Shown: positions 2,308 through 20,386 of the stretch, piece after piece
Numbering within the stretch: the stretch's first letter is position 1
How the letters are laid out: each line of letters opens with the position of its first letter
From: a virus
Length of the DNA stretch: 20,386 nucleotides
Virus record (IMG/VR): IMGVR_UViG_3300020185_000323
Location: 1-20,386 of that record
Direction: 5' to 3' (one strand)
Made by a program: the position numbers and the translations under genes
The notes under the pieces: model-generated
The model's input: only the letters and a program-made list of their open reading frames with translations
Databases searched by the model: none
Told to the model about the DNA's origin: nothing

Positions 2308-3315
2308 ATGAAAGATATAAATTTAAATTCTATAGTATTTAATGATCTAATTAGTAGAGAAGACATCTTAAAACATGTTACGCAAGAAGAAGTATATAGT
2401 TTTTACTTAGGAGAAAAGATAACTACACTTGGTGTATATCATAGTCCTTTACGTGAAGACAATATTCCATCATTTGCACTATTCTTTCATAGAGTAGAAC
2501 CAAATGTTCTTATGTTTAAAGATTTTGCCACAGGAGATTGTGGCGACTTTGTTGCTATGGTAAGAAAGCTGTTTAATTTAAGCTATTCTGAAGCATTAGA
2601 AAAAGTAACATTTGATCTTGGTCTATCTAATTACGGAGTGTCTGGTACTAGACAAACCGTAAATTATACTAAAATAACACAGAAACAAAAAGTAGAATTA
2701 GGAATAAAAATAAGACTGTGGCAAAAGCTGGACAAAGAATTCTGGCAACCCTTCGGTATAAAAAAATCTACATTAGAAAAGTTTAATGTGTTCCCTATTA
2801 GTCACGTATTTTATAATAGTAATGCTGTTAAAGTCTCAAATCATGCGTATGTATATGCAGAGAAAAAAGATAACAAACTTACTTATAAAATATATCAGCC
2901 ATTTGAAGATAAACTCAAAAAATGGATTAACAATGCAAATTATTCTGTTCACCAAGGCTACACACAGTTGCCTAAATCTGGTGAATTACTAGTTATTACT
3001 AAATCTTTAAAAGATGTTATGAGTCTTCATGATGTCATAGGTGTTCCTGCCATAGGTTTACAATCAGAATCTGTTATGATGAAAGACTCCGTTATGGATG
3101 AATATAAATCTAGATTCGAGAAAGTTGTATGTCTCTTTGACAACGACGATGCAGGTATGAAACTCTCAAAAGAGTTTTCTAAAAGATATGATGTACCTTA
3201 TTTCTTTGTATTACCTATTGCAAAATCTAAAGACTTTAGTGACTTTGTAAAAAATACTACTGTAAAATTTAGTATAGAATATTTTAATAAAAAAATAAAA
3301 AAGTTATATGAATAA
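2308..3315 (+). CDS. DnaG-like DNA primase, short form with altered motifs
   Basis: This is a 335-residue primase-type protein. Residues 44-86 follow the primase N-terminal zinc-binding domain pattern (HSPLREDNIPSFALFF, then FKDFATGDCGDFVAMVRK), but the usual zinc-ligand set is gone; only one Cys remains in that stretch. A Toprim domain occupies about residues 226-315, with LFDNDDAGM at 276-284 and KDFSDF at 308-313 providing metal-binding aspartates. The first Toprim motif, normally containing a catalytic Glu (E-G-x-x-D), reads T-K-S-L-K-D at 231-236, so that Glu is missing. I remember the TKSLKD variant from other Bacteroidota phage primases. No helicase domain follows. Its role would be to lay RNA primers for phage replication. 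The start lies immediately after a terminator, and its end overlaps the next gene by 8 bases. Confidence 0.87.
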   Translation: MKDINLNSIVFNDLISREDILKHVTQEEVYSFYLGEKITTLGVYHSPLREDNIPSFALFFHRVEPNVLMFKDFATGDCGDFVAMVRKLFNLSYSEALEKVTFDLGLSNYGVSGTRQTVNYTKITQKQKVELGIKIRLWQKLDKEFWQPFGIKKSTLEKFNVFPISHVFYNSNAVKVSNHAYVYAEKKDNKLTYKIYQPFEDKLKKWINNANYSVHQGYTQLPKSGELLVITKSLKDVMSLHDVIGVPAIGLQSESVMMKDSVMDEYKSRFEKVVCLFDNDDAGMKLSKEFSKRYDVPYFFVLPIAKSKDFSDFVKNTTVKFSIEYFNKKIKKLYE

Positions 3316-4528
3316 GCAAGAATCGCTGAGTAAAATCAGCAAAAACTTAATGCTAAAAGAACCGTTTTACGGTTTCTTTCTAATAATGCTAAATAAAGTC
3401 TGGCATGATGCTATTGGTACAGCAGCTGTAAGCAAAAATGGCATTAACTATCAGCTCACTATTAGTGAGAAATTTTGGGAACCTTTATCTGATTTACATC
3501 GTATGGGTTTGTTAAAACATGAACTACTTCATATTGCATTTAACCATCTTACTACATTTGATTTATTCAAAGATAAGGAGTTGGCCAATATTGCAATGGA
3601 CATGGAAATCAATCAATATATTGATAAAACATGGTTACCTGAAGGAGGTATAGATATAAACGACTATCCTGATCTTAACTTAGACATAAAAGCAGGTAGT
3701 AGATATTACTATGATAAGCTTCAATCACTTCAAAAGAAGAAAAAACAAAACGGCACTTGTGGCTGTGAGAATATGGACAAACTTCTTGATGCTGTAGAAA
3801 AAGGCAATTGCCAAATTACAATAGGAGTACCTGGAGAAGGGGATAAAGATGTTAATGTGCCTAATCATCCTTGGAAAGAGTTTGAAAATCTACCTGATGC
3901 AGAAAAGCAACTTATAGAAAAGCAAGTACAAAGAATATTGCAAGAAGTGCAATCTCAGGCTGAAAAGAAACAAGGACATATTCCTGGTGAGATGAAAGGT
4001 ATTATTAAGATTCAAGAAATAATTCCTCCTAAATTTAATTGGAAGAACTATCTCCGACGCTTTACAGGTATTAGTACTAAGATTTTTACGAAAAAGATTC
4101 GTAGAAAAGAGAATACTAAGTTTCCTGACATGCCTGGTATGAAGATTAAGATGAAACAAAAGCTTATGTTAGCTATAGACACATCTGGATCTGTATGTGA
4201 TGATGAAGTAAGAGAGTTTATGAATGAGATGCATCATATATATAAAACTGGCGTAGATATAACTCTTGTACAATGTGATACTTATATACAAGATATTAGT
4301 GAGTATAAAGGCAAGTATGATCTTAAACTGCATGGTCGTGGTGGTACTGACTTTACACCTGTTATAAAATATTTTAACGAGAATACTAGTTATACTAGTC
4401 TTGTGTATTTTACTGACGGTGAAGCAAGTACTAGTGTTAGCCCTAGAGCTAAAGTATTATGGGTTCACTCTGAACAATCAGATATCAATGAAGACCTTCC
4501 TGGTCTAAAAATTAAATTAGAATTATAA
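3308..4528 (+). CDS. Zincin-like domain fused to a VWA domain (DUF2201 type)
   Basis: The 406-residue protein has two parts. Residues 1-125 carry a zincin-like motif, HELLH at 71-75, a further His at 80, and NIAMDMEIN (Glu100) as a possible third ligand; this is the layout of the putative metallopeptidase N-domain called DUF2201_N. A Lys- and Gln-rich linker, with a C-G-C at 151-153, leads to a von Willebrand A domain from about residue 285. Its metal-ion-dependent adhesion site is complete: DTSGS at 291-295, GGTDF with Asp348, and TDG at 369-371. VWA proteins of this kind work with MoxR-type AAA+ ATPases, and exactly such a gene follows after 12 bases. The pair probably acts as a chaperone or remodelling machine; the substrate is unknown. 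Domains are clear. Whether the HELLH site is catalytically active is inference. Confidence 0.88.
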   Translation: MNKQESLSKISKNLMLKEPFYGFFLIMLNKVWHDAIGTAAVSKNGINYQLTISEKFWEPLSDLHRMGLLKHELLHIAFNHLTTFDLFKDKELANIAMDMEINQYIDKTWLPEGGIDINDYPDLNLDIKAGSRYYYDKLQSLQKKKKQNGTCGCENMDKLLDAVEKGNCQITIGVPGEGDKDVNVPNHPWKEFENLPDAEKQLIEKQVQRILQEVQSQAEKKQGHIPGEMKGIIKIQEIIPPKFNWKNYLRRFTGISTKIFTKKIRRKENTKFPDMPGMKIKMKQKLMLAIDTSGSVCDDEVREFMNEMHHIYKTGVDITLVQCDTYIQDISEYKGKYDLKLHGRGGTDFTPVIKYFNENTSYTSLVYFTDGEASTSVSPRAKVLWVHSEQSDINEDLPGLKIKLEL

Positions 4529-4540
4529 AAATTAAAATCA

Positions 4541-5710
4541 ATGAATCAAATACAATTAAATGTAGATGAAATGAAAAACTTCATCAAACATATGGTTAAT
4601 AATAATCAACATATACAACAAACGGGTAAAGTTCCTGTGGCTATAAATATTGAAGGTGATGCGGGCCTTGGTAAAACATCTGCTATTATGCAATTAGGCA
4701 GCGAGCTAGAAATGCAAGTAGTAAAGCTAAATCTAGCGCAGCTAGAAGAATTAGGTGACCTTGTTGGTTTTCCTGTTAAAGAATTCCAAGTTAAGAATAA
4801 CGAAGGAAAGTCTTTATGGGTTAATGAACAAGAAATCGATACTGCTAATAAGAAAGGTTTCAAAGTTGTAGACAAGAGAATGTCTCATGCTGCTCCTGAA
4901 TGGATTCAGGGTCGTGGTGAAGGCGGTTTCTTAGTTCTAGATGATTACACTCGTGCTGATCATAGATTTATGCAAGCATGTATGGAATTAATAGACAAAC
5001 AAGAATATGTTAGTTGGAGACTTCCTAAAAACTGGCATGTAATCTTAACTACTAATCCTGATAATGGCGACTATAATGTTACTAGTCTAGATAATGCGCA
5101 GAAAACTAGATTTATATCTATAGATACTAAGTTTGACGGTCCTGTATGGGCGCGTTGGGCAGAGAATGTAGGCATAGATGGTCGTTGTATTAATTTCTTA
5201 TTAATGCATCCTGAAGTAATTACTAAAGATGTAAATCCTAGGTCTGTTACTACTTTCTTTAATTCTATAAGTTCTATAAAAGATTTTGAAAAAGAACTTC
5301 CTCTTATTCAAATGGTTGGCGACGGTTCTATTGGACCTGATGCTGGCGCCATGTTTGTCATGTTTATTAATAACAAACTAGATAAGATTTTAACTCCACA
5401 ACAACTGTTAACTCTTGATGAAAATGATTTAATTAAAGAGACAAAAGAGTGTATAGGAATAAACGATACTTATCGCGCTGATATAGCCAGTGTACTAGCT
5501 ACTAGATTAGTAAACCATTGTTTAGTTTTTGCACAAACAAATCATATTAACGAATTAATAACTAAAAGGTTGGTCAGTTTAACTACTAAACATAATGTAT
5601 TTACTGATGACCTTAAATATTATATCGTCAAAGAATTGTTAGGTGGAAACAAAGCTAAGTTTGCGAAGATGATGCTAGATCAAACTGTTTTACAAATGAG
5701 TACTAAATAA
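4541..5710 (+). CDS. MoxR-like AAA+ ATPase, partner of the VWA protein
   Basis: This 389-residue ATPase has Walker A GDAGLGKT at residues 39-46, a Walker B stretch ending LVLDD at 131-135, a sensor-1 style TTNP at 170-173, and an arginine-finger candidate in QKTRF (Arg190). The LGDLVGFP segment near residues 71-78 is typical of the MoxR/VWA-associated AAA_5 group. A less conserved alpha-helical C-terminal half follows. In bacteria such ATPases pair with VWA proteins to assemble, activate or load metal into complexes. Here the partner gene is directly upstream with only 12 bases between. The leader ATTAAAATCA is A-rich like the other starts. Family assignment is confident; the phage substrate is unknown. 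Confidence 0.9.
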   Translation: MNQIQLNVDEMKNFIKHMVNNNQHIQQTGKVPVAINIEGDAGLGKTSAIMQLGSELEMQVVKLNLAQLEELGDLVGFPVKEFQVKNNEGKSLWVNEQEIDTANKKGFKVVDKRMSHAAPEWIQGRGEGGFLVLDDYTRADHRFMQACMELIDKQEYVSWRLPKNWHVILTTNPDNGDYNVTSLDNAQKTRFISIDTKFDGPVWARWAENVGIDGRCINFLLMHPEVITKDVNPRSVTTFFNSISSIKDFEKELPLIQMVGDGSIGPDAGAMFVMFINNKLDKILTPQQLLTLDENDLIKETKECIGINDTYRADIASVLATRLVNHCLVFAQTNHINELITKRLVSLTTKHNVFTDDLKYYIVKELLGGNKAKFAKMMLDQTVLQMSTK

Positions 5711-9127: not shown

Positions 9128-9991
9128 ATGACAAAACTTATAAAAAAAATTAAAAGAAAATCTATGTTGATTCGCCCTTCTGGTAGATCTACAGATTTTA
9201 TTAGTCCTAGTTTTGGCTATGGCTGTTTATATAACTGTAGTTACTGTTATATGAAAAGACATAAGCCTAAAGGACTAGATGTAGCTAAGAATATAGGAGA
9301 CATTCTCACAGCTATAAATAACCATGTTTATTTTACTCCTGTTGACAAACCTAATCAAACACATGCTGTATTAACTACTTATGATATTAGCTGTAATGAG
9401 GATTTTGCATTACATGCTAAATTTTATGATTGGCGTACAATATTTGATTTCTTTAAAAAGCATCCTATGGCCATGGGGTCCTTTGCTACAAAGTATGTAA
9501 ATCCTGATCTTATAAATTACGACGCTAATAAAAAAATTAGAATCAGGTTTAGTCTAATGCCTCAAAAATTATCTGACATACATGAGCCAGGCACTTCTAA
9601 AATTATTGACAGAATTAAAGCTATAGATGCATTTATTGATGCAGGCTATGATGTTCATATAAACTTTAGTCCTGTTATTGTATATAAAGGCTGGCGAGCT
9701 GATTACAGAGAGTTATTTGAGATGGTTAATGACTATGTCGATTACAAAGACGAAGTGCTCTCAGAGGTTATCTTTCTAACTCATAATTACAAAAAACATA
9801 TAGCTAATCTTAAAGATCATTTAGAAGCAGAAAAGGTATTATGGATGCCTGAAATTCAAGAAAGTAAAATATCACAATATGGTGGAGAAAATGTAAGATA
9901 TAAACTTTCTTTAAAAAAGAAATTTATCGAGCAGTTTATAGCTCTTCATGATGAAATAATCTCGTGGAATAAAATTAGATATATATTTTAA
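9128..9991 (+). CDS. Radical-SAM enzyme of the spore photoproduct lyase type
   Basis: This 287-residue protein has C-L-Y-N-C-S-Y-C at 33-40, the Cx3Cx2C motif that binds a [4Fe-4S] cluster and S-adenosylmethionine. Later segments match what I remember of Bacillus SplB: S-C-N-E-D at 88-92 (Cys89, where SplB has its hydrogen-donor Cys141), an EPGTS at 153-157 followed by RIKAIDAF, AGYDV at 172-176, and GWRADYRELFE at 188-198. SplB reverses the UV-induced thymine dimer called spore photoproduct. The protein is shorter than SplB (about 340), mainly at the ends. Functions to consider are repair of phage DNA lesions or radical chemistry on another nucleotide. The gene stands alone: a terminator lies 11 bases upstream and its end overlaps the convergent gene by 4 bases. 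Radical-SAM assignment is firm; substrate is inference. Confidence 0.88.
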   Translation: MTKLIKKIKRKSMLIRPSGRSTDFISPSFGYGCLYNCSYCYMKRHKPKGLDVAKNIGDILTAINNHVYFTPVDKPNQTHAVLTTYDISCNEDFALHAKFYDWRTIFDFFKKHPMAMGSFATKYVNPDLINYDANKKIRIRFSLMPQKLSDIHEPGTSKIIDRIKAIDAFIDAGYDVHINFSPVIVYKGWRADYRELFEMVNDYVDYKDEVLSEVIFLTHNYKKHIANLKDHLEAEKVLWMPEIQESKISQYGGENVRYKLSLKKKFIEQFIALHDEIISWNKIRYIF

Positions 9992-10954: not shown

Positions 10955-13900
10955 TTAGGCATTAAATCTTTCTGATTCATCTGCAGCAGCTTCGTCAATT
11001 AGATCATCCATTATAACATCTCTTTCTGGATCTGTCATGCTGCCCCAATAATTAACATCATTATAAGGTAATAACCAATTAAAAAATATATCTGTTAATC
11101 CTGTTTTATCATCGTCTGATAGATTTTCATATAAACCAGATTTAACTACAGTTTTAATAAATTTGTTTTTTTCGTCAGGATATTGTAGCTCATATAAATT
11201 TTTAATAGGAGTAAATTTCATTCTTTTTCTATATCCTTTTGTTTTTCCTTTATATATTCCTCTTTCTACTTCTTCTCCGCTAAAGAAATTCCACATGTCT
11301 GCCCATTCTTTAAACTGTCTAGATCCTGCTATAGGCTCATCTACCATTTCTACGAATTCGCCAAGTGACCAAGCAGCATTTTGTTCTAAAAGAATTCTAT
11401 TTGTTTGATATGCCATAAGCTGCATTAACCAACTATCTGGTTCATCATCTGCTTTTAAATTAGCAGCTGCGGCCATTATACTTGTAATAACTAAAAATGC
11501 AAAATCCATAAGAGTTTTTGCAACTCCTCTTTTTCTTACAGCATTTAATTTACCGTAAGCAGCAAATGGAGCAAATCCATAACCTTGTTCATGTACAAAA
11601 ATATTTTTTAAGTATGATAAAGAAGCTCTGTAATTTCCTATTTCTTCTTCTCCTGATATTTTATTAAAAGTTTGTTTTCTAAGCCTGGTGTCTATTAATT
11701 GCACTACCCAACCTCTGTGCATTAATAGAAAATCTCCTAATATTTGCCTAGATAATACTCCTTTATCTATATCTCCTAAAACACCGTCAAGAGTACTAGC
11801 AACATGTTGTACTTTACCTCTAACAGAATTTAATAGTGCTTCAGTAACATAAGATTCAAATTCTTTTTTAACTTGTAAATTACCGTCAACTACTTCATAT
11901 GAATTGTATAAACTTTTTTCTCTAAGATCTTTCCAATCTTGTTTCATATTTTTTTCATGAACACCATCGTTTTCTACATTTTGTTCAGAAGCAGTTTTTG
12001 CTAAATACTGCGTTTTAGTTAAATATTGTCCATTATATAGTCTATGATTATCGTAAATACTTATTGCAGTTCTTCCTTTAATACCATAATCTGCGGTATG
12101 AAAAGTAGTATATGCTATATCTTTAGTAAGAAGTTTTCTAGTTCCTCTATTCTTACCAGTTTCGTGTAACATAGTATCTAACTTAACTATTTCACCTTCT
12201 TGTAATATTAAATGTAATTTATTAGTTTGATTTATTTTTCCTGTTTGGGATAGTATTTGGCCTATGTTTGCTAAAAATTCTTTTTTAGCATAAAGAGCGC
12301 TTTCACTATTTGTATACAAAGCTGTTTTTTCTTCTATAACTTTATCAATAGATCCTTTAAACCAACCTGCAGTAGAAGAGACAAAATTAAAAGCAAGGTT
12401 ATTATTTCTAATCCACCCTGCTACTGCTTGTGAAAACTTAGTCCAAGAAAATTCTTTTCCTACTAAAGAAGGAATAGTTTTACCTAATTTACTGTCTTTA
12501 GTAATTTTTACTCCTAAAGATTCTCTTTCTATTCCAAATAAATTAGTGTCTATTAAATATTCTAGAGCCTTATATTCTCTTGTTTCTTTTGTAGTCTTTT
12601 TTACACCTTTATTAATAAACTCTCTTCTTCCTAAAGTAGATTGTAATCCCTGCATTTCTCCAGCAATAGCACTCATTTCTTCAAAGTTTTTGGCCATTTC
12701 TGAAAATAATACTATTGTACGTCCTATATCATAAGAAAGAGTACTTAAATCATCTAATTTACCAGTAAAATGAATAGGGACCATTTTATTATTAAGTAGA
12801 TTTAATTGACCAAATTGTGTGTCATCTGCATCTACAAAAAAAGCTTTATCAGTAAGCTGTCCTAACCTTTTCATAAAGCTAACATCTTTATTAGTTACTG
12901 TATCTAAAAAGCTTTTCATAACACCAGGAAGTAAATATAAATTTCTTTCTGTTCTATATCTTTCAGGCAATAGCAGCAATGCTTCTTCTTTTGTTTTAAT
13001 AATTAAATCATAGTGATTTTTAAATACAGGATCTGCCATTAATCTTTCAAAGTCTTTATTAATGTAAGTATTATTTGGAATTCTTACTTCTAAAACATCG
13101 CCTGCTGTATCCTGCTCATAAGATATTTTAGTGTTTTCTTTAAAAAATCTTGCTAATCTCTCTTTTTTATATTTTCTCTCATCTGCAGATAATTGATCAA
13201 AAGGAATATCTGAATAAGAAATTTCTCCTTCTTCATTTTCATATCCTAATTTTTCAGCAATTTCTTGTCTAACTTTATTAAGCTCTTCATAATATTCTGT
13301 CATATTATGTTTTCTAATAAAATTATGAGTTAGTTTGCCGTTTTTATCTTTTTCTACTAAATCTTCTTGCTTATATTTAGTCATAAAAACTTCTTGACTT
13401 TTAAATATATTATTAGCAAGCCTAACAGCAAATCTTTTGACTTTACCTATTTGATCAGAAATTATTTTTAAAGCCGAAGTAATAGCTACAGAATCTGCAT
13501 ACTTTAAATTACCTGCATTTAGTCTCCAAACATTTACTCTATCATAATTTGATGTTTCTACAAGCTCTTCACTATTTTGATTTGGGTCTATTTTGTTTCC
13601 ATAAGCGTCTGAATTTGCTTTATCAGCAGTTTTTATAGAACCATTATCAGTAAGTTTAAAAGCCAAACTAGTTGATTTATTTAATTTACTTCCTATATTA
13701 TCAAAATTAGTAGATAATTCTTCTCTTTCTTCTTTAGATAATCCTGCATCAATAAAACTAGCAGTTACTCCTATAAAAATGTTATTATACATTTCATTGA
13801 ACCCTCTAATAAGAGTTAAATTAGTTTCACTAAGAGGTATATTATTATCTACACTATTGTTCATAGTTTCTAGTAAAACATCTATTTCTTTTTCTGCAAG

Positions 13901-15169
13901 AGAGACAAAAGAAGCAATTCCTAAATCATATTGTTGTTCTTCAATTTTTTTAGTAAGTTCTACTACTTCTCTTTTTAATTTATTTACAGTATTTTTTCCT
14001 GTATTAGAATTTTTTAAAAGAGATATTCTTGCATTTAAAATATCGATTGAATCATTTAAAAATTTTTCTTTTGTATGTATAGAGCTTTCGGGTATGTTAT
14101 TTTTTTTAGACGTTTCCTCTGTTTGTAATTTAATATCTTGCTTAGTAAATTTATTACTAGCAATTTTTCCTAAAAATTCTTCTGCTAAAATAGATTGTGC
14201 TAAAGGTATTATAACAGAATCAAGTTCTGTTCTTGCAGCTGTTTTTTTACTAAGTTTACTGCCTATAAAATTAAAGAAATCTGTTATAGCTTCCTTAATA
14301 CTTTGCCATAAACCAGATTGGCCAGCCATTTTTTCTGTCATCTGGTATTGAGTAACTATCTCTGCAGCAATTAGTTTACCAAGTGCTTCTTTTCTAAAAT
14401 CTATTTCATTTTTATATATGTCTTTATATTCTGTTTTAACTTGTGAGTATGCATTTGTTTCTGTTACTTTATTAATAGCATTACGTATATTAGGATTTTT
14501 TTGATCTACTAACATTTCTACTGCAAAATGAGCTACTTCTTCTGCCATAGTATCTATCTTAGCTCCATCAGCAATTGCTATTAAATTTTTAGCAAAATCA
14601 GCTACACCTAAAGCAGACTTTTCATATCTATCTGGAAATTTTTCCATAACAGATTTCATTGCTTTTACAGAAATTCCATGTTTACGAGCCCAACTTAATA
14701 ATTTTTTATCAAGTTTTTCTATTTTCCCTTCAGTAGATTGAGATCGTAACTGCCTAAAAAATCCTTGTGCAAATGGAGAAAAGTAATCATCCATTGTTAC
14801 AGGTCTGTTTTTATAACCTGCTATATAATAATTACCTTTTTGACTCATTCTAAGATTCCAAGGAACATCTCCTATTCTACTAGAAATTTGCTGAAGTTTT
14901 TTATTAATAATTTCAACATTAAGTGTGTTCGGGTCTTTACCGTATACATCATCAAAAAATATTCTTTTGGCTTGTTCTGCATATACTCTGCCATTAGGAG
15001 TTTGATACATTAAATCTGTTCCTAAATTTAGCTGAGATAATGTAGGAAAATTATCTGTACCATATTTATCCATCCACATAGATATCTCTGCTTTTAAAGA
15101 AACTGGAGATTCTCCAGAGTTTTCTAAAAGAAATTTATAATCAGGATGGTTTATGTTTATACAATGCAT
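10955..15169 (-). CDS. Giant 1404-residue virion-type protein, probable partner of the RNA polymerase
   Basis: No enzyme family is certain. The N-terminus (HPDYKFLLENSGESPVSLKA, then FPT at 41-43) matches a start that I remember from giant proteins next to the RNA polymerase in crAss-like phages. Residues 209-220 read A-E-E-V-A-H-F-A-V-E-M-L: a zincin-like motif with Glu in place of the first His, so peptidase activity is doubtful. A Lys/Glu-rich coiled-coil candidate lies at about 365-420. Near residues 1222-1240 is a hydrophobic segment (FAFLVITSIMAAAANL) able to insert in a membrane, and the C-terminus is acidic. Size, mixed architecture and pairing with the polymerase suggest a packaged protein ejected with the DNA. 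The start lies one base after the upstream stop (TAATATG), with no Shine-Dalgarno. Function is inference; the coding call is firm. Confidence 0.85.
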   Translation of the reverse strand: MHCININHPDYKFLLENSGESPVSLKAEISMWMDKYGTDNFPTLSQLNLGTDLMYQTPNGRVYAEQAKRIFFDDVYGKDPNTLNVEIINKKLQQISSRIGDVPWNLRMSQKGNYYIAGYKNRPVTMDDYFSPFAQGFFRQLRSQSTEGKIEKLDKKLLSWARKHGISVKAMKSVMEKFPDRYEKSALGVADFAKNLIAIADGAKIDTMAEEVAHFAVEMLVDQKNPNIRNAINKVTETNAYSQVKTEYKDIYKNEIDFRKEALGKLIAAEIVTQYQMTEKMAGQSGLWQSIKEAITDFFNFIGSKLSKKTAARTELDSVIIPLAQSILAEEFLGKIASNKFTKQDIKLQTEETSKKNNIPESSIHTKEKFLNDSIDILNARISLLKNSNTGKNTVNKLKREVVELTKKIEEQQYDLGIASFVSLAEKEIDVLLETMNNSVDNNIPLSETNLTLIRGFNEMYNNIFIGVTASFIDAGLSKEEREELSTNFDNIGSKLNKSTSLAFKLTDNGSIKTADKANSDAYGNKIDPNQNSEELVETSNYDRVNVWRLNAGNLKYADSVAITSALKIISDQIGKVKRFAVRLANNIFKSQEVFMTKYKQEDLVEKDKNGKLTHNFIRKHNMTEYYEELNKVRQEIAEKLGYENEEGEISYSDIPFDQLSADERKYKKERLARFFKENTKISYEQDTAGDVLEVRIPNNTYINKDFERLMADPVFKNHYDLIIKTKEEALLLLPERYRTERNLYLLPGVMKSFLDTVTNKDVSFMKRLGQLTDKAFFVDADDTQFGQLNLLNNKMVPIHFTGKLDDLSTLSYDIGRTIVLFSEMAKNFEEMSAIAGEMQGLQSTLGRREFINKGVKKTTKETREYKALEYLIDTNLFGIERESLGVKITKDSKLGKTIPSLVGKEFSWTKFSQAVAGWIRNNNLAFNFVSSTAGWFKGSIDKVIEEKTALYTNSESALYAKKEFLANIGQILSQTGKINQTNKLHLILQEGEIVKLDTMLHETGKNRGTRKLLTKDIAYTTFHTADYGIKGRTAISIYDNHRLYNGQYLTKTQYLAKTASEQNVENDGVHEKNMKQDWKDLREKSLYNSYEVVDGNLQVKKEFESYVTEALLNSVRGKVQHVASTLDGVLGDIDKGVLSRQILGDFLLMHRGWVVQLIDTRLRKQTFNKISGEEEIGNYRASLSYLKNIFVHEQGYGFAPFAAYGKLNAVRKRGVAKTLMDFAFLVITSIMAAAANLKADDEPDSWLMQLMAYQTNRILLEQNAAWSLGEFVEMVDEPIAGSRQFKEWADMWNFFSGEEVERGIYKGKTKGYRKRMKFTPIKNLYELQYPDEKNKFIKTVVKSGLYENLSDDDKTGLTDIFFNWLLPYNDVNYWGSMTDPERDVIMDDLIDEAAADESERFNA

Positions 15170-15170
15170 A

Positions 15171-18100
15171 TTAACATTTTTTTATTTGTTTCATGACAGT
15201 TGCTTTTTTCTCGGCACTGTAAGCATTAAATTCGTCTTCAGTAACAAAGTTATCTTTTCTTTTTGATTCATCTAAAGTATTAAGAATATCTAAAAATTTG
15301 TTATAAGAAGCAGCTTCTAATTTACTAGCATTTTCAGTAAGGCTAGAATCAATACTTGCTAAACCTGCTAATGGATTTTTAACCTCACTAGTTTGTTGTG
15401 TTGATTTAGAAAAATTAAATCCTATTGATTCAAGTACTTTTTTACTTGCTTCTTCTTTTGAGTATTTTGCTATATCTTGGTGCAAAGCGTTTAATATTTC
15501 GCCTTTAGTTCCCGCAAGTCTATTATAAAATCCAGACAAAGGAAACAGCAACTTAGATTTATTATCTATTACGCTCCATCCCCCTTTATCTTTATACACA
15601 AACAAATCAGTATCAGGCTGATTATCTATAAGAATAGATGTTCCTTTAACCTCTTCTTTATTAGCTAAAGTAAAAGTTTCTAACTTACCTTTTTTAAAGC
15701 TCAAATCTTTTTCTTTAATTTCTTCAACCTCACTAGTTTGTTGTTCAGCCTGATCTTTATTTTTAATACTAGGCACAATTACAGGAACAGTAGTATTTTG
15801 AATTTCTTCTTGCTGCATTAAAGCTATTGCTTCTTCTTCTGACATTTGAGAAGATTTTAAATGATTTGCTACAGATTTTTTTTCGATTTTAGGAGCAAGA
15901 GCTAAAGCAGTGTTTTCTATATCTTCTGAAAAATTAAATTCTAAAGAAATATTATCTAATCCTAAATTACTTACTGGAGAATATGTCCAAGTGTCTAAAC
16001 CTGTTTTACCATCAAAAGCATTAGGATTTTGTAATCCTTTAGTAATAGAATTAAAATCTAACTTATAAATATCTACTTTATAAGGATCAGGAATTTTATT
16101 TCCAAATTCTGAATATCGAGCTTTTCTAAATACTTTTATATATTCTACAGGTAATCCATTATTATGTTTAGTAACTAAATCTGAATTTTTTCTTCTATTA
16201 ATTATTAAATTACCGTTACTAGTTTTAACTGCTCCTTCTGCGCTTTCATAAGCAGTTAAAGTTTCTAATCTATCTTTTTCTGCCTCACTTAAAGGTAAGA
16301 CTTGTTCTTCTGTAATAACTTGTTTTTTAACCTTAACACTTTTTACAAATCCTTCTTTAGATGCAAAATTTCTATAAAACTGATCATAAAATCTTTTAGC
16401 AAATTTACTTTGACCCCCTTTAAATTTTTCAGAAAAAAGTGCTTGTTGTAAAAATTGATTAAAAGTATTTCCTCTACTATCTACTATATTATTTTTTACT
16501 TGGTAAGCATCTGTATAAAATTTAACAGGGATTAGATTACTAAATGATTTAGCTCCATAACCTAGACCACTAGCAAAATAAGTATACTTAATCATATCAA
16601 GAGCAAAGTTTTTTATTTCAGAATTAGAATCTAGTAACATTCTTTCCCAAGTCTGTCTAACAAAGTAATGATCTATAGAATTTTTTCCTGTATTGTAATA
16701 CTCTAACCTAGGTATTAAAGAATAACTATCTGCTTCTACTATATATATTTGTTCAAATAATAATTTAAGAGGTGAATTTTCGGGTAAAGAATTTTTAAAC
16801 TTTTTAAATCTTTTAGGAAAATTAAGAATCATATCTTTATTTTCAGAATATTTAAAGAAAGGAAAAGCACTTGCTGTAAAATTCATAAACTGCATGTCTA
16901 CCATACTAACTTCTTTTTCTGAAAGAACTCCAGATCTTTTACTAGCCCCCATTTTTCTTTTAAGATGTCCTAAAGCAGAGTATACACTATCATTGTTTTC
17001 TGATTTCATAGTTTCTACTGTACCATAAGCAGGAAATATCTTATTCATTATATTAGAAGGAAGCCTAATACCGTATTCATTAAATGCAGGAATCATTATT
17101 TGTCCAGATAATCTAGGCATAAAGACTTCATCAAGTCCTTCAATCATAGAAGTTTCTAATATTTCTGCATCATTGATTAACTTTTGCTTTTCTAATAAAA
17201 CAAAATTGTTAGCAGAACTAGGCCCTACTCCTTGAGTATCTACTTTACCTGCTTGGACTCCTCTAGAAAGTTCTAAAGCTATTTCTTTTTGAGTTATAAA
17301 TAAAGACACTGCTTTCATCTGTAAATAAAGATGCCTAAAAGAGTCAGTAGGAAATATATTATCTTCTAATAATTCAGTAGTTAAAGGAAGTTCTTCTAAC
17401 TCTTGTAGAACACTGTCACTTAAATTTTCTTCTTTAAACTTTTCTGCAATTTTACTTCTTAATTCTTTTCTAAAAGCACTAATCTGTTTTTCTTCACTCA
17501 TAGACCCCTGCTCGTTAAAATACTTTTGAGTAAGCTTAATTATAGCAGGCTGATTTAATAAGGCATATGTAAAATCTTCTGGTATTCCTAGTCTATTTTG
17601 AAAAGCAATCACATCAATAGTAAAACTATTCATGTTAAGAGGATTTGCTACAGGAGATTTTGTATTATCTACAATAGCTGCTAAGTTAGTTGCTAAAGTT
17701 CTAGAAATTCTAATTCCATCTATCTCTGATTTATTAAGATACTGATAAAACTTACCATTAATAAAGATAGGCTCTCTTAATCTTAGATTAGTATATTGAG
17801 CTTTTGCGTGATGTGTATTATGATTTGCAAAAGGACCAATAAGTTTTTTACCATCCATATTAGCTCTAAAGAAATCTAATTGTGTAGAAGGATAATTTAA
17901 ATTTTGATCTTCTGATTTTATTTCTTCAGCTTTTGTTTTGAGTGCTTTTCCTTTAAGAGTCCTAGCTTCTTTTTTTAACCCTGCTTTAAACAATACTATT
18001 TGATTTCCTTTATCTATTAAAGGAGAAGTATCTGCAATTCTTATTATAGATTCTGCAGTATGTCTACTTCTTAATATGCTTTCTATAAGAGTTACTAATT

Positions 18101-20386
18101 GATTATTTCTAGCTCTTTTACCATTAAAATCCATAGTATTAAGAGTTCCATTTGCTATTCCCTCTTCAATCTTTTGAGATATTTCGTTAATAATTGTTAA
18201 ATTAGTTTCATCTACTAAAGAAATCTCTTCATTAAAAGGAACATAGTTTTCTTCCATAGTTGCATATAATTCATCTATGTCTGCTTGGTATGAATCTATC
18301 ATTCCTTGTTTATTACTTTTACTTTTGGCAAGTTTTAAAGATTTTATTTTTAGCGTAATTTGCTTATGCTCTTTAGAATCAAAAATATTTTTTTTACCTT
18401 CTTTAGCAGCATCTCTAGCATCTATACCTTGTCTTTTAAGTTCTAGAAGCCCTTCTATATATTCTTCAGTAAAATTAGTTTTATACAAAAATCTTTTAAA
18501 ATCTCTAAAACTAGAAAATATATTTTTAGCTAATTCGTCTAGATCTTCTTGAATTTCTGTATCATAAAACTTAATTACTTTAGGATTCCCATTTTGGTCA
18601 ATATTAAACTCTCTAGACATGAAAAATAACTTATCAATGTCAAAGTCAAACCCTGATATAGTAAGTGCTTCTGGAGGCATTATTATTACTCCTCCCATAG
18701 ATTGAGGAGTAAATCCTTTTACTCTGATAGAGAACATAGAATATTTATCTTCCGTCGGAATCCTGTTAGCTACAATGTCTAAAAGTTCAGGAGCATGTTT
18801 TTTTATAGCATCTATATCTATTTCTCCATTTTTATTAGTAGGAAATAATTTTCTAGATGTCCAGGGGATAAGTGCTTCAAAAATAATACCTCCTGTAACA
18901 GGATCTTCTATCATTTTTAACTGTTCTGAAAATCCCCAAGAAGGAGCATTTACTAATTGGCCTCCTTTAATTTTTTGTTTAGTAACTCTATTTTTAAAGA
19001 AAGAATTCATAAGAGATTCCATTTTATAAGAAATTAAAGGATGATATAACGGCAATGCTGTTCCGCTTCCATTATTTCCTAAAACTTCTTCAACAGGGGC
19101 TAAAGCTTCTAAATACTCATTACCCATCTCTCTGTTAATAATTTCTTCTTTTAATTTTGCAACTAAAAAATCATAATTAATATTTCCATCTTTATCTTGG
19201 AAATCTCTACGTACTTCTTCAAAAGATTCTTTTATATTTTGTACTACTAGATTTTGATACATTTCAACTATTTCTCTACCAGTCATAATAAAACCGTTAG
19301 TCATTTCATAGTCTTCTTCCATTTTAATATCTGCAATTACAAGGTTTCGTAACTGCGTACCAAAATTAGATCTGTCGTCAGAATAATGTTCGGGAGTTTC
19401 TTGCTGTAGTCTAAGATCTGACCAATTTAATTCTAAAAATCCTGAAGGAGTTTTTATAATGTTATCGTGAGAAAGTTTATAATTACCAGTTTTACTATCA
19501 TAAATATAATCTGCAAATTGTACTTCGCCTTTTTCATTTATACCTACTCCTAATCCTCCTACTTTAATAGCAGAATCAAAATAAAGAACATCAAATTTTG
19601 CATTAGAGCCATTCATATCTAAATAAGCAGCTGCTAATTTTGGATCTACATATTTTCCTGAAGAATCTTTTTTAAGAGCTAAAGATGGAGATAAAACTAT
19701 TTCTGCATTCTTAGCTTGAAAAGGAATTTCAATTCCTTCTAGCATATAACTACTCACATCAAAAGGTTTTTCTGGTTTTGTAGGAGAATTAATAAGCATA
19801 AAATCTTCTATACTTTCTATACCTTTTTTTATATTATCTAGTGCTTTCTTTTCTGCTTCTCCTAATCTACCTAAACCATCTAAAAATTTTCTTCTATGTT
19901 CTATACTTACAATAGTACCACCGTCAGAAAGATTATTCCCTTCGTACTTTGAAGGGTTCTTTTCTAAAGCTTCTTGACTTCTTGATCCCCACGCAATTTT
20001 AAGAGCATCTTTTTCAGAATCTGTCATAGTATCAGATTCATCTATCTTTTTATAGAAATAATCAATAAGAGTATTTCTAGTAGAAGCAATGCCGTCTTTA
20101 ATAATCATTGCTTTATACGTTCCTTCTAAAGCGGGATACATTCCTGGGCTAACTTGCTGTTTACCTCTTTTTTGTTGATCAGTTGCGTCTTTGTAAAAAG
20201 CAGCGTCTTTATTAAATAAAGAATTAAATTGACTATTATAATAAAAATGATTTAATAAATATTCTTTAAAGAAAGAAGTTTTATCTTCAATGCCTGAACC
20301 AATAACTCCTTCTGAAAATTCTATTACTCCTGTTTCTAAATTAACATTATTAATAATTCCTTTACTAATAAACTTCTTTATTTCCG
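15171..20386 (-). CDS. Giant single-chain RNA polymerase (double-psi beta-barrel type), 5'-truncated
   Basis: At least 1737 residues are visible; the frame stays open to the window edge, so the Met at 20141 is internal. Numbering from that Met, R-I-P-T at 460-463, F-S-I near 472, V-I-I-M-P-P, then F-D-F-D-I-D at 498-503 follow the beta' active-site pattern of multisubunit RNA polymerases (R-x-P-T ... S-I ... N-A-D-F-D-G-D). Asp499, 501 and 503 would hold the catalytic Mg. Upstream, K-Q-K-I-K-G-G at 388-394 may be the lysine loop of the beta-type barrel. Other stretches recalled from crAss-like polymerases are KLIGPFANHNTHHA, VDTQGVGPS, FDSAIKVG and, before Met1, AFYKDATDQQKRGKQ. In crAss-like phages such enzymes are packaged in the virion and transcribe early genes. 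Its stop is one base from the next gene. Activity is inferred, not shown. Confidence 0.85.
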   Translation of the reverse strand, partial: EIKKFISKGIINNVNLETGVIEFSEGVIGSGIEDKTSFFKEYLLNHFYYNSQFNSLFNKDAAFYKDATDQQKRGKQQVSPGMYPALEGTYKAMIIKDGIASTRNTLIDYFYKKIDESDTMTDSEKDALKIAWGSRSQEALEKNPSKYEGNNLSDGGTIVSIEHRRKFLDGLGRLGEAEKKALDNIKKGIESIEDFMLINSPTKPEKPFDVSSYMLEGIEIPFQAKNAEIVLSPSLALKKDSSGKYVDPKLAAAYLDMNGSNAKFDVLYFDSAIKVGGLGVGINEKGEVQFADYIYDSKTGNYKLSHDNIIKTPSGFLELNWSDLRLQQETPEHYSDDRSNFGTQLRNLVIADIKMEEDYEMTNGFIMTGREIVEMYQNLVVQNIKESFEEVRRDFQDKDGNINYDFLVAKLKEEIINREMGNEYLEALAPVEEVLGNNGSGTALPLYHPLISYKMESLMNSFFKNRVTKQKIKGGQLVNAPSWGFSEQLKMIEDPVTGGIIFEALIPWTSRKLFPTNKNGEIDIDAIKKHAPELLDIVANRIPTEDKYSMFSIRVKGFTPQSMGGVIIMPPEALTISGFDFDIDKLFFMSREFNIDQNGNPKVIKFYDTEIQEDLDELAKNIFSSFRDFKRFLYKTNFTEEYIEGLLELKRQGIDARDAAKEGKKNIFDSKEHKQITLKIKSLKLAKSKSNKQGMIDSYQADIDELYATMEENYVPFNEEISLVDETNLTIINEISQKIEEGIANGTLNTMDFNGKRARNNQLVTLIESILRSRHTAESIIRIADTSPLIDKGNQIVLFKAGLKKEARTLKGKALKTKAEEIKSEDQNLNYPSTQLDFFRANMDGKKLIGPFANHNTHHAKAQYTNLRLREPIFINGKFYQYLNKSEIDGIRISRTLATNLAAIVDNTKSPVANPLNMNSFTIDVIAFQNRLGIPEDFTYALLNQPAIIKLTQKYFNEQGSMSEEKQISAFRKELRSKIAEKFKEENLSDSVLQELEELPLTTELLEDNIFPTDSFRHLYLQMKAVSLFITQKEIALELSRGVQAGKVDTQGVGPSSANNFVLLEKQKLINDAEILETSMIEGLDEVFMPRLSGQIMIPAFNEYGIRLPSNIMNKIFPAYGTVETMKSENNDSVYSALGHLKRKMGASKRSGVLSEKEVSMVDMQFMNFTASAFPFFKYSENKDMILNFPKRFKKFKNSLPENSPLKLLFEQIYIVEADSYSLIPRLEYYNTGKNSIDHYFVRQTWERMLLDSNSEIKNFALDMIKYTYFASGLGYGAKSFSNLIPVKFYTDAYQVKNNIVDSRGNTFNQFLQQALFSEKFKGGQSKFAKRFYDQFYRNFASKEGFVKSVKVKKQVITEEQVLPLSEAEKDRLETLTAYESAEGAVKTSNGNLIINRRKNSDLVTKHNNGLPVEYIKVFRKARYSEFGNKIPDPYKVDIYKLDFNSITKGLQNPNAFDGKTGLDTWTYSPVSNLGLDNISLEFNFSEDIENTALALAPKIEKKSVANHLKSSQMSEEEAIALMQQEEIQNTTVPVIVPSIKNKDQAEQQTSEVEEIKEKDLSFKKGKLETFTLANKEEVKGTSILIDNQPDTDLFVYKDKGGWSVIDNKSKLLFPLSGFYNRLAGTKGEILNALHQDIAKYSKEEASKKVLESIGFNFSKSTQQTSEVKNPLAGLASIDSSLTENASKLEAASYNKFLDILNTLDESKRKDNFVTEDEFNAYSAEKKATVMKQIKKC
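15381..15399. repeat. 19-base direct repeat inside the giant gene, copy 1
   Basis: AACCTCACTAGTTTGTTGT occurs here and at 15726-15744. On the minus strand both copies encode Q-Q-T-S-E-V in the same frame, 115 codons apart. They lie in the low-complexity C-terminal region of the polymerase gene and may flank a duplicated or swapped linker. Confidence 0.8.
15726..15744. repeat. 19-base direct repeat inside the giant gene, copy 2
   Basis: Identical to 15381-15399. The segment between the copies encodes a compact-looking domain (about residues 1469-1580 from the internal Met) with the stretch LFVYKDKGGWSVIDNKSKLLFPL. Confidence 0.8.

Follow-up and report, generated by a model that had tools for sequence, protein, structure and literature searches.

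A probable crAss-like virion RNA polymerase gene, cut at the end of a 20-kb virus fragment, carries the DFDID motif usual in its family

The window analysed here is the 20,386-base record of a virus fragment (IMG/VR record IMGVR_UViG_3300020185_000323, positions 1 to 20,386), at one end of which a minus-strand frame (15171-20384) extends over 1737 codons ahead of its stop and remains free of stop codons up to the contig end, where it is cut on its 5' side. In a relative that is 83% identical (L005), the whole gene forms a single uninterrupted frame of 3383 amino acids, with the Asp-rich motif at residue 2076. Judged by this sequence, the protein in the window would lack about 1500 N-terminal residues, and the window would contain roughly the 3' half of the gene for a crAss-like phage virion RNA polymerase. 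An earlier note had read RIPT, FSI, MPP and FDFDID in this order in the frame, and the order is as described: RIPT (residues 541-544) is encoded at 18753-18764 on the minus strand and FDFDID at 18650-18633, of which the codons of DFDID (residues 580-584), containing the putative metal-binding Asp triad, lie exactly at 18633-18647.

Adjacent to this frame, and in the same orientation, is a gene for a protein of 1404 amino acids (10955-15169, minus strand), homologous to the 'putative RNA-polymerase subunit' gp49 of Bacteroides phage crAss001 (tblastn, 22% over 84% of the protein). A gp49-type protein is also present in six relatives of 87-92 kb, and the order of the polymerase followed by the gp49-type gene is common to crAss001, DAC15, cr106 and phi14:2; the giant co-oriented neighbour by which the transcription block is recognised is therefore found in the window as well. 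On the opposite strand are encoded a Sak4-like ATPase, a DnaG-type primase, a DUF2201/VWA protein, an AAA ATPase and an exonuclease. The plus-strand gene at 3308-4528, which adjoins the AAA ATPase at 4541-5710, is named 'HNH endonuclease' in PHROGs (phrog_1314) while matching DUF2201 metallopeptidase-like and VWA-like families in Pfam, and the PHROGs name is probably wrong. The plus-strand gene at 9128-9991 encodes a radical-SAM protein assigned to the spore photoproduct lyase family (PF20903, E 1.6e-23), which possibly acts in the repair of DNA photoproducts.

Searches with the polymerase frame as a single sequence against the PDB, Pfam and PHROGs returned no match, as is to be expected of the crAss-like polymerase family, reported to be extremely divergent (PMC7886860). 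Among annotated phage records, by contrast with these searches, the best tblastn matches are to the 'putative RNA polymerase' of crAss-like phages (E ~1e-51), led by Dulem virus 41 and followed by crAss001 and its kin. A profile built from 58 relatives found exactly one solved chain, that of gp66 of the Cellulophaga phage phi14:2 (PDB 6VR4), with E 1.2e-162 and 546.7 bits across the whole core; the deposited phi14:2 open reading frame is identical to the 6vr4_A chain. Residues R541, P543, S549, G578, D580, F581, D582, D584 and K585 are invariant across the 58 aligned relatives, and together with the tblastn matches to crAss001 kin this excludes chance as the origin of the motifs in the frame.

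A cellular-type beta' subunit would be expected to match the Pfam family RNA_pol_Rpb1_2 (PF00623) and to carry DFDGD. The window protein has DFDID at this position and gave no match to PF00623 at E 10, a search in which 14 of 14 controls matched. What it has instead is homology to annotated crAss-like polymerases and a DxDxD motif with three catalytic Asp residues. Alignment by hhalign against E. coli beta' nevertheless places RIPT opposite NRAPT, of which it is the counterpart (its R and P being invariant in all 58 rows), and DFDID opposite DFDGD in one register, with an E value of 0.16 that is non-significant alone.

An AlphaFold2 model of residues 150-1291, built from the 58-relative alignment, reached a pLDDT of 84.5 and a pTM of 0.85. 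With Foldseek, 6vr4_A was the first match to this model (E 2e-30), and nothing else fell below 0.001. VIA-align superposed the model on 6VR4 with Z 24.1 and an rmsd of 2.9 A over 853 residues, followed by QDE-1 at Z 10.5 and, with values near 10, by phiKZ, AR9 and the beta' subunits of cellular polymerases. The matched ranges were model residues 2-1142 for 6VR4 and 1-971 for QDE-1. Because both of these are single chains that contain two double-psi barrels each (PMC10770324), the predicted structure supports, at the level of the whole core, the suggestion of the earlier note that the two barrels lie in one chain. Sequence homology, profile match and predicted fold hence agree on a single-chain polymerase of the crAss-like virion type, which is what had been proposed.

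The beta'-type barrel (DPBB-A) is predicted at residues ~469-595 (18600-18980, minus strand), where the model aligns with E. coli beta' from residue 345 onward and with the non-virion polymerases (nvRNAP) of phiKZ and AR9, at Z ~10; the same alignments place DFDID within this barrel, as the note had it. A probable bridge helix, residues ~832-862 (17799-17891, minus strand), corresponds to the model helix 683-713, and its identification comes from the ends of the alignment ranges, E. coli beta' (6oul_J) 344 to 804 having aligned with model residues 320-714. The beta-type barrel (DPBB-B) probably occupies residues ~204-369 (19278-19775, minus strand), as judged by the model strands, the whole-chain matches and the conservation of this region; a model of this piece by itself scored low (pLDDT 67), resembled none of the known folds and speaks neither for nor against the assignment.

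The earlier note had also proposed that the KQKIKGG loop (residues 469-475; 18960-18980, minus strand) could represent the beta-type barrel. Its position, 111 residues ahead of the first Asp of the motif (model D431), agrees with the 'about 110' first given, but the proposed identity does not hold. Many structural alignments to E. coli beta' open at K469 of the loop (model residue 320), opposite beta' 345 in the KRVDYSGR segment that forms the opening strand of the beta' barrel. From that strand to the first Asp there are 115 residues in E. coli, close to the distance observed here, and KQKIKGG is variable across the family, with G474 alone nearly fixed. These three observations place the loop in the beta'-type barrel, at its first strand. 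Better candidates for the beta-side lysines lie ~195-245 residues further upstream: K274, within a VKVG segment, which is conserved in 58 of 58 relatives, and K225, likewise a conserved residue.

Taken together, the gene is very probably that of a crAss-like (Crassvirales) virion RNA polymerase, with both double-psi barrels in one chain and a role like that of the phi14:2 enzyme. By analogy with the relatives, the catalytic magnesium would be bound by D580, D582 and D584 of the beta'-type barrel, with the conserved K274, and perhaps K225, contributing from the beta-type barrel. The protein would most likely be packaged in the virion and injected with the DNA, as its homology with phi14:2 gp66 and the crAss001 protein suggests, and would then transcribe the early genes of the phage without recourse to the host polymerase. 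The phi14:2 enzyme, to which the window protein is ~17-18% identical in the aligned core, has been reported to synthesise RNA in vitro and to carry out early transcription that resists rifampicin (PMC10136315); its location in the virion has likewise been reported (PMC7886860).

A crAss-like polymerase made only after infection, with a non-virion role, would fit a fragment in which no structural gene is recognised (crAss-type capsid and tail proteins are absent from these 20 kb) and in which the genes of the opposite strand serve replication, but this seems very improbable, as mass spectrometry has recorded the phi14:2 homologs of the two giant proteins among the structural proteins of the virion, and a second polymerase copy was not seen in six long relatives, each of which gave one match. 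Six contigs of 87-92 kb from the clade of the window encode a crAss001-like capsid protein (31-33%) and a stabilisation protein.

The virion polymerase of phi14:2 also bears on the fourth residue of the Asp-rich motif, which the earlier note regarded as a normally invariant Gly that had drifted to Ile. In phi14:2 gp66, residues 1361-1365 read DFDID, and the same string is found in DAC15, cr106, crAss002 and cr127, with DYDID in Fpv1, DFDVD in crAss001, crAssphage ZA and cr273, and DLDVD in cr111; the residue is Ile or Val in all 13 annotated phage records with a readable motif, and the 58 aligned rows all follow D/F/D/[IV]/D. A first sample of IMG/VR relatives was unfit for counting Gly, one of its gathering patterns having itself demanded Ile or Val. 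A second, motif-blind sample was collected with patterns downstream of the motif only, and the column was readable in 75 relatives: DFDID in 58, DFDVD in 15, DFDAD in two and DFDGD in none. The two DFDAD sequences belong to near-identical relatives (frames L154:3191 and L163:3191) and carry the sole residue in this sample other than Ile or Val.

Because Gly is absent from the motif-blind sample, the fourth position (Ile or Val, occasionally Ala) can be read as a signature of the crAss-like family, showing no sign of decay. That the window copy is a drifted member with a decaying motif or an impaired enzyme is scarcely credible, since its Ile, unusual as it is against the DFDGD of 80 of 80 bacterial beta' genes (a mostly proteobacterial sample, partly gathered with an ADFDGDQM pattern, that illustrates only the known rule), is shared with the solved and active phi14:2 enzyme. 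As the family's normal residue, the Ile should not impair activity, and the copy loses the value as a data point on motif drift that had been claimed for it. It is conceivable, though unlikely, that the family-wide replacement of Gly by Ile or Val affects catalysis, for example through the handling of metal or NTP, in a way that distinguishes crAss-like from the other two-barrel polymerases. The string DFDID appeared in no relevant paper among those searched, although the 6VR4 sequence itself shows it plainly.

Within the DFDxD codons themselves, the polymerase gene is interrupted in three crAss-like relatives (L040:10240-11162, L049:10270-11182 and, in cr116_1, L015:9984-10869), the interruption in L040 falling at GSD | FDIDKLY. 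Pieces of group I introns are detectable in the gaps of L040 and L049 (E 8e-9 and 5e-7, under the Rfam gathering score), and the gap of cr116_1, classed under Steigviridae, contains a LAGLIDADG endonuclease. Disruption inside DxDxD has been published for the Zeta group (PMC7886860).

In a tree of the polymerases, the window falls in a clade of 20 rows (support 100) that consists of environmental IMG/VR contigs and stands apart from the sampled Steigviridae, Intestiviridae, Crevaviridae and Fipvunavirus references; the deep forks of this tree are weak, and its Crassvirales references are confined to these groups. The clade (L019-L025, L100-L128; about 20 environmental contigs), in which the polymerase genes encode ~3.1-4.6 kaa, may be an unnamed Crassvirales group.

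Of the known systems, the closest is phi14:2 gp66 (Phi14:2_gp077, KC821624), which shares with the window protein the single chain, DFDID, RIP[TN], the order of the barrels, the giant gene downstream and the fold match described above. The phi14:2 protein has 2180 amino acids, while those of the window lineage reach ~3.1-3.7 kaa, with extra N- and C-terminal length. For the two adjacent giant genes, the sequence relatives with the best annotation are gp50 and gp49 of crAss001, although its polymerase has DFDVD rather than DFDID and is 27% identical to the window protein in the core. The polymerases of RNA interference, QDE-1 and RDR, likewise carry two double-psi barrels per chain and provide the second-best fold match, but they are eukaryotic RNA-silencing enzymes to which the profile search detected no sequence match. 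Among phages, gp96 and gp64 of Thermus phage P23-45 are two-barrel polymerases like that of the window, and gp96 is also virion-borne, but its motif reads DFDGD and it forms a fusion with the tape measure protein (PMC10770324). The find is hence an ordinary one, Ile being the standard residue of the family, including its one solved and tested member: a family of polymerases already described both structurally and functionally gains, in the window protein, a further representative from an environmental clade.
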